Part shown: piece by piece, positions 16,683 through 38,874 of the stretch
How positions within the stretch are numbered: the stretch's first letter is position 1
How the letters are laid out: each line of letters begins with the position of its first letter
Assembly: GCA_022600345.1 (NCBI GenBank)
Contig: JAHZKP010000052.1
Location: 1-64,000, forward strand
Reading direction: 5' to 3'
DNA: 64,000 nucleotides
Source of the DNA: Alphaproteobacteria bacterium
GTDB taxonomy: Bacteria; Pseudomonadota; Alphaproteobacteria; Rhizobiales; Hyphomicrobiaceae
Made by a program: the position numbers and the translations under genes
Notes under the pieces: generated by a model
The model's database searches: none
Seen by the model: only the letters and a program-made list of their open reading frames with translations
What the model was told of the DNA's origin: nothing

Positions 16683-16740
16683 TCTTTTATGTCTTCACGC
16701 GCTGGTCGCGCTCCAGACGGGGCGGCGAGATGTCTGTGCT

Positions 16741-16860
16741 CAACATCGGGCAGGCCCATATTGAAGGGTTTTTGAGTGCACAACATTCGGCGAGCCGATG
16801 TTGAAGTGTTTTTGTTGCTCAACATTCGGCAAGCCGATGTTGAAGTGCGGCCGACCATCG
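16741..16860 (+). repeat. three tandem ~39-40-bp hairpin-forming repeats
   Basis: Copies begin at 16741 (CAACATCGGGCAGGCCCATATTGAAGG), 16781 (CAACATTCGGCGAGCCGATGTTGAAGTG) and 16820 (CAACATTCGGCAAGCCGATGTTGAAGTG). Each is an imperfect palindrome. Confidence 0.8.
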
Positions 16861-35013: not shown

Positions 35014-38000
35014 ATGACAAAAACGATTCGATCCAGAAATGCACAAAAGGTGACGGCGGCGCTTGCTGGGAGCAGCGGGGCTGACGCTGGCGCAGAAAAG
35101 ACGGCAGATGCCAAAGACGATGGATTGGCATTTGTGCATTTGCGCTCGCACTCGGCCTATTCGCTTCTGGAAGGGGCGTTGCCGATACCCAGGCTGGTCG
35201 AATTATCGAAGCAGCACGGGTTTCCGGCTCTCGGGCTGACGGACACCAACAACCTGTTCGGTGCGCTCGACTTTTCCGAGAAAATGGCCAAGGCGGGGTT
35301 GCAGCCGATTATCGGGGTGACGCTGGCGCTCGATTTCGAGGGTGACGGACAGAAAGACCCGCTTGGTTCGGGGCGGCCGATGAAGGCGGGTGAGAGCCAG
35401 CATCACCGTTTGGCGCGCGATGGGTTCGTGGCGCTGCTGGCGGCGAGCGAAGCTGGTTACGTCAATCTGATGGCCATCGTCAGCGCGGCGCATCTTGATG
35501 TCGAGGATGGCGCCCCACCGCATGTCACGATCTCGAATTTGGAAGCTCATGGCGAGGGGTTGATTGCGCTAACGGGTGGTCCCGATGGGCCGATCGATCG
35601 TGCGATTTTCGATGCGCGCGGGGCGATTGCCCGGGGCCGGTTGGAGCGCCTGGCGAAGCTGTTCGGGGACCGGCTCTATGTCGAGATCCAACGGCACGGT
35701 GTTGAGCGTGAGAAGGTGGTTGAACCGCAGTTGCTCGATCTTGCCTACGACTTGGAATTGCCGATCGTGGCGACCAACGAAGCCTTCTTTGCCGAGCCTG
35801 GAGATCATGAGGCGCATGATGCGTTGGTGTGCATATCGGAGGGGCGCTATGTGGTTGAGGAAGACCGCAGGAGGCTGACCGCGCAGCACTACTTCAAGAC
35901 CGGTAAGGAGATGGCGGCGCTGTTTGCCGATCTGCCGGAAGCTGTCGCCAACAGTGTGGAGATTGCCAAACGGTGTCACTTCCGGGTGCTTGGGCGCAAT
36001 CCGATTTTGCCCAGGTTCGTTGCAAGTGCGGAAGGCAAGAGCGAAGAAGAACTGGTCGAGGAAGAGGCTGCGGAATTCAAGCGGCAGGCCGAGGAAGGGT
36101 TGGTGCGCAGGCTGGAAGCGCACGGACCGGCGGAAGGTTTCAAGGTCGAGGATTATAATGAACGGTTGGCCTACGAGATCGGCATCATTATCAAGATGCA
36201 GTTTCCCGGCTACTTCCTGATCGTTGCCGACTTCATCAAGTGGTCGAAGGCTCAAGGCATTCCCGTTGGGCCGGGGCGCGGATCGGGGGCCGGATCGCTT
36301 GTTGCCTACGCGCTGACGATCACGGATCTGGATCCATTGCGCTTCGGGTTGTTGTTTGAACGGTTCCTCAATCCTGAACGTGTGTCGATGCCCGACTTCG
36401 ACATCGACTTCTGCCAGGACCGTCGCGAAGAAACCATTCGATACGTGCAGGAGAAGTACGGTCACGACCGGGTGGCGCAGATTATCACGCACGGAAAGCT
36501 GCAGGCGCGCGCGGTGTTGCGCGACGTGGGGCGCGTTCTGCAGATGCCTTACGGGCAGGTCGACAAGCTGTGCAAGATGGTTCCCAACAACCCGGCGGCC
36601 CCTGTGACTTTGCCCGAGGCGATTGAAGAAGAACCCAAGTTGCAGGAGGCGCGCGATAGCGAACCGCTGGTGGCGCAGCTTCTGGAAACTTCGCAAAAGC
36701 TGGAGGGGCTCTACCGGCATGCGTCCACGCATGCTGCCGGCATGGTGATCGGCGACCGGCCGCTCAACCAACTGGTGCCGCTTTACCGCGATCCGAAATC
36801 GGATATGCCGGTGACGCAGTTCAACTGGAAGCTTGTTGAAGCTGCCGGGCTGGTGAAGTTCGACTTCCTCGGCCTCAAGACACTGACGGTTCTGAAAAAG
36901 GCCGTCGAACTGGTCAAGCGGGCGCGCGGGATCGATGTCGAACTGGAAAAGCTCGATGTGTTCGACAAGAAATCCTACGAGCTTCTGGCGCGGGCCGATA
37001 CGGTTGGTGTGTTCCAGTTGGAATCGACTGGCATGAGGGAAAGTTTGAAGCGCCTGAAGCCCGACCGCTTCGAAGACATCATTGCCATGGTGGCGCTTTA
37101 TCGCCCCGGTCCGATGGACAACATCCCAACATATATTCACCGCAAGCACGGCGAGGAGCCGGTCGACTGTCTGCACCCGATGCTTGAAGGCATTCTGTCG
37201 GAAACCTATGGCGTCATCATCTATCAGGAGCAGGTGATCCAGATCGCGCAGGTGATGGGTGGCTATACGCTGGGCCAGGCCGACATGCTGCGCCGCGCGA
37301 TGGGTAAGAAAGACAAAGACGAGATGGCGCGCCAGGAGAAGCGCTTTATCGAGGGTGCCGTTGAGCGTGGTGTCGCCAAGAAGGAAGCGGCCTACATCTT
37401 CGAGTTGGTGAACAAGTTCGCCGGCTACGGCTTCAACAAATCGCATGCGGCGGCCTATGCGCTGGTCAGCTATCACACCGCCTATATGAAGGCGAATTTC
37501 CGCGAGGAATTTCTGGCAGCATCGATGACGCTCGATATGGCGCAGACCGAGAAGCTTGCCGGGTTTGCAGCGGAAGCAAAGAAGAGCGGCATCAAGGTGC
37601 TGCCGCCGTGCGTGAATAATTCGGAGGTCGATTTTACCGTCGAGCCGGCTTCTCCCTCTCCCCGCAAGCGGGGAGAGGATCGTGGTGGAGCCGCGCTTCC
37701 AGCACGAGGTGAGGGGCGGACACAAGGGCAGGCGTTGCTGGATGACGCTGCCCCTCCCGCGCATTCCGACGCTGCCCCTCCCGCGCATTCCGACGCTGCC
37801 CCTCCCGCTCGTTCCGACGCTGCCCCTCCCCCTAGCCCCCTCCCCGTGAAGAACAGGGAGGGGGAATGCCAGACGGGCGCCATCCGCTACTCGTTGGCGG
37901 CGCTAAAGAACGTTGGGGCGAGTGCGGTTCAAACCATCGTTGATGCCCGCCAGGAAGAGGGGCCGTTCAAGACGCTGGGCGACTTTGCTACGCGGCTCAA

Positions 38001-38874
38001 TGCGCGCGCCGTCAACAAGCGGGCTATCGAGACGTTGTCGCAAGCTGGTGCGTTCGACTGTCTGGAGCCTAGCCGCGCCGTGGTGAAGGCAAGCGCCGAA
38101 CAGGTGATGGCGCTGGCACAACGCACGATGTCGGATGCATCGGCGGGGACGTCGGATCTGTTTGCTGCACCCGGAGCGGCACCAAGCCTGATGTTGAAAA
38201 AGGTGAAGGCGTGGACGCCGCTGGAACAGTTGGAAAACGAGTTCGCCGCGGTCGGTTTCTATCTTTCCGGGCACCCGCTTGATCAATACAAGAAGGTGTT
38301 GGGTAAGGCTGGGGCGACGACGTATGCGGCCATCGATCGGATTGCGGCGGAAAGCGGGGCGAGTGCGGGCAGGGTTGGGGCGATTGTCGTTTCGGTGCGC
38401 GAGCGGCGGTCGGCGAAGGGTAACAAGTTTGCTTTCGCGATGTTCTCGGATGCCTCGGGGCAATTCGAGGCGGTGCTGTTTTCCGATACGCTTTCGGCTG
38501 CAGGCGATTTGCTGACGGCTGGAACGCCGGTGGTTTTGACCGTTTCTGCGGAACGCGACGAAGAGGGTTCTGTGCGATTGCGCGTGCAGGCGGTGGAAGC
38601 GCTCGATAAGGTGGCGGCCAGTGTCGAGCGGGGCCTGCTGATTTTCTGCGATCCCGATGCGATCAACTCTGGGCCGCAATTGTTCGACGAGATCAAGAGC
38701 AATCTGGAGCCGCCGATTGCAGGGACGCGGGGCGGTGAGATCCGTCTGGTGCTGCCTGTTCGCGGGCGAGGCCGCGAGTTGGAGTTGAGGCTGCCTGATA
38801 AGTATGATGTTTCGCCGAATGCAGCGGGACATCTTTCGACGGTAGCCGGTGTCCGGGAAGTTGAGGAGATTTGA
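35014..38874 (+). CDS. dnaE: DNA polymerase III alpha subunit (DnaE1) with in-frame repeat insertion
   Basis: [51 protein letters not shown]...[60 protein letters not shown]. Confidence 0.97.
   Translation: [1286 protein letters not shown]
37649..37869 (+). repeat. palindromic/tandem repeat element embedded in frame in dnaE
   Basis: Hairpin CTCTCCCCGC-AA-GCGGGGAGAG (37656-37677); four 24-bp tandem units starting GACGCTGCCCCTCCC at 37744, 37768, 37792 and 37816; second inverted repeat CCCCTCCC...GGGAGGGG (37837-37863). Confidence 0.85.

Follow-up and report, generated by a model that had tools for sequence, protein, structure and literature searches.

dnaE1 and its expanded loop

The window (the whole 64,000-nucleotide stretch that was analysed) belongs to a near-complete 4.09-Mb draft genome of 156 contigs. 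It carries dnaE1, whose product scores above the cut-off of the NCBIfam model NF004226 (Pol III alpha). The gene and the parts of its enlarged loop are as follows.

35014–38874, + strand: dnaE1, DNA polymerase III subunit alpha; intact, 1286 codons (ORF, NCBIfam, Pfam)
37636–37881, + strand: expanded dnaE1 loop, 82 codons, consisting of native linker remnants and the insert
37656–37677, unstranded: left hairpin CTCTCCCCGC-AA-GCGGGGAGAG (= CTCTCCCCGCAAGCGGGGAGAG), perfect, stem extending to 11 bp
37680–37707, unstranded: nested sub-repeat TCGTGGTGGAGCCGCGCTTCCAGCACGA, 28 bp (own-genome BLAST, query positions 30–76)
37708–37716, unstranded: GGTGAGGGG, third-strand-like arm of a triplex motif, mirror of GGGGAGAGG at 8 of 9 positions
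37744–37830, unstranded: 24-bp tandem array of GACGCTGCCCCTCCCGCGCATTCC, 3.6 copies, 96% matches
37836–37864, unstranded: right inverted repeat CCCCCTCCCCGT...ACAGGGAGGGGG, the closing hairpin, with 12-nt arms

The loop is bounded by the conserved segments ...VNNSEVDF and IRYSLAALKN..., the frame is open on both sides of the insert and the flanking protein is intact. From the Pfam domains and the structural model, the insert has the fingers region on one side and the HhH motif on the other; its predicted peptides include GGAALPAR and TQGQALLDDAAPPAHSDAAPPAHSDAAPPAR. The original prediction supposed that the two flanking segments are normally nearly adjacent, and they are: most family members have 12–13 aa between them, and the loop is about 6 aa elsewhere in the order, against 82 codons here.

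The palindromic and tandem repeat proposed to sit in frame inside dnaE was recovered as described, with one open frame, a hairpin, an array and an inverted repeat. The hairpin had been announced as a perfect 10-bp stem, and this stem in fact reaches 11 bp. With up to three mismatches allowed, the window contains it a single time and none of 100 shuffles contains it, and the best palindrome of the loop exceeds 99.6% of dinucleotide shuffles (p = 0.004). When folded as single-stranded DNA, the left half of the loop has a z of -3.3, with 0/200 shuffles equally stable; taken by itself, the tandem/right half folds with ordinary stability (z = -0.2). The array is real, though its four announced 24-bp units are three full units and one partial, coding for DAAPPAHS-type repeats. 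The expected closing inverted repeat pairs at 11 of 12 positions (37836–37847 with 37853–37864). Reading the sequence directly, we found neither a GTAG nor a CGTC tag beside the two hairpins of dnaE1, and an Rfam search returned chance-level matches only.

The structure of the loop was predicted by AlphaFold on a 593-residue DnaE1 fragment, with an alignment of 62 relatives. The model has a mean pLDDT of 81 and agrees in fold with solved structures of Pol III alpha. The bulk of the insert (fragment residues 278–336) has a pLDDT below 50 and is flanked by short strands (262–264 and 343–345) just before the HhH region, while the C-terminal region adjoining it is above 90. This answers the surface-loop check that had been suggested: the insert is predicted to be disordered between two strands, and the simplest reading of the model is a disordered, exposed loop.

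Copies of the element elsewhere in the genome

When the dnaE1 loop is compared with its own genome by BLAST, 57 pieces match, of which many overlap or are weak; with good E-values, pieces of the element are found at about 25 further genomic places. A pattern search at up to two mismatches finds 11 palindromes (0 with the reversed-pattern control). The recurrence of the palindrome in the host genome, which had been put forward as a check, is therefore borne out. The canonical copies read CCCTCTCCCCGCnnGCGGGGAGAGGGTnnGGGTGAGGGGC, often with a mirror-image half across a spacer. These copies show the canonical triplex-motif layout, in which a third arm with mirror symmetry comes after the hairpin arm (GGGGAGAGGGTNRGGGTGAGGGG); in the dnaE1 copy the nested repeat breaks this layout. 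The nested sub-repeat is found elsewhere in the genome either alone or inside the element, in about a dozen pieces; as some of them lack the CTCTCCCC hairpin, it is a small repeat in its own right, nested in the element. A diverged copy of it (TGCTGGAAGCGCG...) lies at 199–236, near the start of the window.

A RAYT/Y1 transposase was considered as the mover of the element and rejected, since a search for the RAYT family (PF01797) gave 0 matches in the near-complete draft genome, with positive control genomes.

The DnaE loop across Hyphomicrobiaceae and the order

We compared the dnaE1 loop of 94 Hyphomicrobiaceae species and one outgroup. The loop has 12–13 aa in most of the family and 6 in a few; in the genus of the window it has 18–20 aa and no palindrome in six of the seven other members with a readable dnaE1. 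Aligning close relatives, proposed as a way to recognise a native linker, thus shows for most of them a short linker without palindromes, so that the insert is not simply a low-complexity linker common to the relatives.

Palindrome-derived loops, of 26–82 aa, occur in 14 of the 94 species. Ten carry the CTCTCCCC type (G000, G004, G021, G122, G069, G066, G103, G119, G031 and G115), including the decayed element of G066, whose stem is 5 bp and which was typed by its sequence. Two (G068, G121) carry a CCCTCCCC..GGGGAGGG type and two (G118, G065) a GTCAGACCC..GGGTCTGAC palindrome. Stems are 8–18 bp in the clearly palindromic loops versus 3–6 bp in 56 short loops. The last two types are repeated in the genomes that carry them: the CCCTCCCC type has 28 genomic copies in G068 and 9 in G121, the GTCAGACCC palindrome 116 in G065 and 19 in G118, and both have 0 in the genome of the window. 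G122 has the element in dnaE, yet no genomic palindrome at the stringency of the family count. Across the family, this DnaE loop thus hosts no fewer than three types of palindrome. The CTCTCCCC and CCCTCCCC types are alike and may be distantly related; the GTCAGACCC type is unrelated to them. Copies of the latter were also counted in G034 (53) and G064 (31), and are often found as closely spaced pairs.

An in-frame insert at the same DnaE site is present in PERT01000026.1 of Hyphomicrobium sp. FW.3.32, its loop being the same as that of G122. Among 249 genomes scanned across the order, the DnaE match is split only in G000 and G031, and nearly all genomes outside the family match in one piece. 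The spans of these one-piece matches, taken from the stronger matches listed, are about 6–7 residues shorter than the query with its 13-aa loop.

The original prediction held that the 24-bp period keeps the insert in frame as copy number varies. As regards the frame this fails: the array is specific to this genome and would reflect a later expansion of the spacer, and it is not what keeps the frame because most carrier relatives have the element in frame without an array. G121 too shows a spacer expanded in tandem (PTTPT repeats). In one locus of G080 (L166, about 202–900) the spacer of an element is seemingly expanded into many 24-bp units (TSPLPHFP), with the same period as the dnaE1 array and a different sequence. 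The inter-hairpin region therefore seems prone to tandem expansion, G121 and probably G080 being further cases.

In-frame copies in other genes

Of the own-genome copies, 15 were read in detail, and three of these are located in frame within conserved genes: ileS (C142), thiC (C93) and an FGE-like gene (C134). There are thus at least three in-frame copies outside dnaE1 in this genome, and the other copies among those read seem to be outside conserved genes. The proposal that an intergenic-type repeat has colonised an essential gene stands as far as an interspersed genomic repeat is concerned; in this family, however, the repeat is not only intergenic. The copies in dnaE1, ileS, thiC and the FGE-like gene have one common frame type (SPSPRxRGEG / APHPxPLPxxGER). 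Most other frames of full-length elements contain stops, and a stop filter explains this common type.

In-frame hosts confirmed by NCBIfam are IleS, ThiC, ValS, UvrA, PdhB and a DnaE2-type polymerase, a set which is not an unbiased census because it was found by protein query in one frame. In ValS the base loop of 49 aa reaches 83–89 aa with the element, of the CTCTCCCC type in five species and of the CCCTCCCC type in two; the ValS loop is thus a second hot spot, with two palindrome types. Insertion sites are also common to several species in UvrA (three), IleS (two) and ThiC (two). Such a natural set of in-frame insertions maps tolerated loops in DnaE, ValS, UvrA, IleS and ThiC.

Two of these loci deserve mention in their own right. 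In G015 (L285) the same kind of element is in frame in a DnaE2/error-prone polymerase gene, and in G063 (L293) an element is in the linker of pyruvate dehydrogenase E1 beta, between lipoyl-type and catalytic parts.

One insertion or many

The history of the DnaE insert was followed on a DnaE tree from which the loop had been left out. The carriers are scattered on it and sister species differ in occupancy. The CTCTCCCC type requires 9 changes, against a mean of 9.6 for shuffled labels, and 12 changes are needed when the palindrome types are kept apart. G066, G068 and G069, three close species of one genus, share the downstream flank PSNADGPxGA, and at this one point the palindrome of G068 is of another type than those of G066 and G069. 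Together with the scattered pattern on the tree, these different types at one point favour recurrent insertion.

A single ancient insertion in the common ancestor, lost or replaced by recombination in most species, is on this evidence unlikely: it must accommodate different palindrome types at the site, even inside one genus, needs losses in most of about 80 species and meets a label pattern as scattered as at random. What speaks for it is local. In genus g24 the flanks LVETVSxGAA are common to G031 and G119, with LVETISGGAA in G115, and G000 and G004 have spacer features in common. Each of these two groups (G031/G119/G115 and G000/G004) may go back to a single ancestral insertion with subsequent losses or recombination.

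The abundance of the repeat is associated with insertion when phylogeny is left uncontrolled (p = 0.0006); with phylogenetic control three pairs are for and none against (p = 0.25), too few informative pairs. Comparison of sister loops revealed no readable target-site duplication and no clear empty site, the duplication being unreadable because the linker itself varies.

Relation to known repeats

The Rickettsia RPEs, cited in the original prediction as a precedent for repeats invading genes in frame, prove an apt one, since the element here likewise sits in frame in several housekeeping genes and occupies a loop predicted to be disordered. They are palindromic repeats of 68–192 bp in frame inside housekeeping genes (PMC3767692, its Table 1), with RPE-4 and RPE-6 in DNA polymerase III alpha and RPE-7 in isoleucyl-tRNA synthetase, and they occupy solvent-exposed places in proteins (PMC3767692). 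Like them, the dnaE1 element is a multi-copy palindromic repeat of its host genome, it is in frame in unrelated conserved genes without destroying them (dnaE1, ileS, thiC and the FGE-like gene; valS, uvrA and others in relatives), and it falls in a predicted surface loop, disordered between two beta strands. Unlike them, it is GC-rich, its hosts are free-living and its two hairpins have triplex-type arms. Compared by reading with the described ATGAC-rich motif of RPE-4/-6/-7, the insert contains just one ATGAC, and the rest of it is rich in GC and does not look like that motif. One common origin was favoured for the RPEs and hot spots were left open (PMC3767692), whereas insertion in Hyphomicrobiaceae looks recurrent between species.

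Intragenic GTAG/CGTC REPs are also in frame, many of them in replication and repair genes and some in tRNA synthetases, and are known in uvrA, DnaE2 and the DnaE of R. conorii (PMC3733652). The Hyphomicrobiaceae element resembles them by its in-frame presence in uvrA, DnaE2-type, DnaE and tRNA synthetase genes. It differs in that the dnaE1 hairpins have no tag and the genome no RAYT match, and in that the same loop is hit repeatedly, while genes of one functional category mostly receive REPs at different sites, recB excepted (PMC3733652).

The intrastrand triplex motif is present in E. coli and in more than 260 bacterial genomes; the work on TM / TM_ECO dealt chiefly with motifs in the vicinity of ORFs and their link with genome instability (PMC4666352). 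The arm GGGGAGAGGGTTAGGGTGAGGGG and the hairpin arm of our element are nearly identical in sequence to E. coli TM copies, and its arms belong to this described class. In contrast to TM / TM_ECO, the Hyphomicrobiaceae arms form head-to-head pairs on the two sides of a spacer and also occur inside genes.

Given the RPEs of Pol III alpha and IleRS (PMC3767692) and the intragenic REPs (PMC3733652), the kind of insertion is already known. As far as the open literature shows, what is new is that this class of element occurs in genes, that the host family is free-living and that different palindromes reuse one DnaE loop; for Hyphomicrobium no prior report was found in the open-access literature. Unrelated palindromes in one loop of one essential gene, in a well-sampled free-living family, make the hot-spot view directly testable, on the question of one old origin or hot spots raised for Rickettsia. 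They also show how essential proteins get lengthened by selfish DNA.

Origin of the insert

We consider that the insert derives from an interspersed palindromic repeat, one copy of which entered a solvent-exposed, insertion-tolerant loop of DnaE1, with a probability of roughly 0.87. The element would consist of two CCCTCTCCCC/GGGGAGAGGG-type hairpins facing each other across a spacer. Its copies would land in many places, by random or loosely targeted insertion, and for an intragenic copy to survive, its length would have to be a multiple of three, its frame free of stops and the protein region a permissive loop. For full-length elements the stop-free frame would mainly be SPSPRxRGEGxGEGQ...APHPxPLPxxxGER. 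Such a filter would lead to the same loops being repeatedly hit. In the lineage of the window, slippage in frame-neutral steps of 24 bp would later have expanded the spacer. Most likely the protein tolerates the peptide, which would have no function of its own.

A low-complexity linker native to DnaE, turned palindromic and rich in GC through drift or chance, could account for a loop whose length varies across the family and for the few long loops without palindromes (G017, G024, G067). We hold this very improbable, given palindromes that match multi-copy genomic repeats, the same elements in frame in ileS, thiC, valS and uvrA, and an order scan in which nearly all genomes match across the loop in one piece. 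Still less credible is an artefact of assembly or binning: the genome is indeed a draft of 156 contigs, but the dnaE1 frame is uninterrupted, and in-frame inserts at the same site are also present in independently assembled genomes of other species, PERT01000026.1 included.

An insert that alters the polymerase (e.g. its fidelity, or the handling of clamp or DNA near the HhH domain) and is kept by selection would suit a site flanked by the fingers region and the HhH motif, and targets such as DnaE1, the DnaE2-type polymerase and UvrA, gene classes noted earlier for intragenic REPs, where function was speculated for the REP-tagged genes (PMC3733652). Its absence from sister species, the free decay of its sequence (G066, G115), the presence of IleS, ValS, ThiC and PdhB among the targets and the predicted disorder of the insert make a selected function improbable. 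A bolder and slightly more doubtful idea is that the DnaE loop is a family-wide landing pad for the active palindrome of each genome and that the inserts measurably change the fidelity or processivity of replication; if true, repeat activity and mutation rate would be coupled.

Another repeat is present in the window at 16736–16847, where a 40-bp tandem unit (2.8 copies) containing the inverted repeat CAACATTCGGC..GCCGATGTTG lies directly downstream of an apparent tRNA gene, probably for serine.
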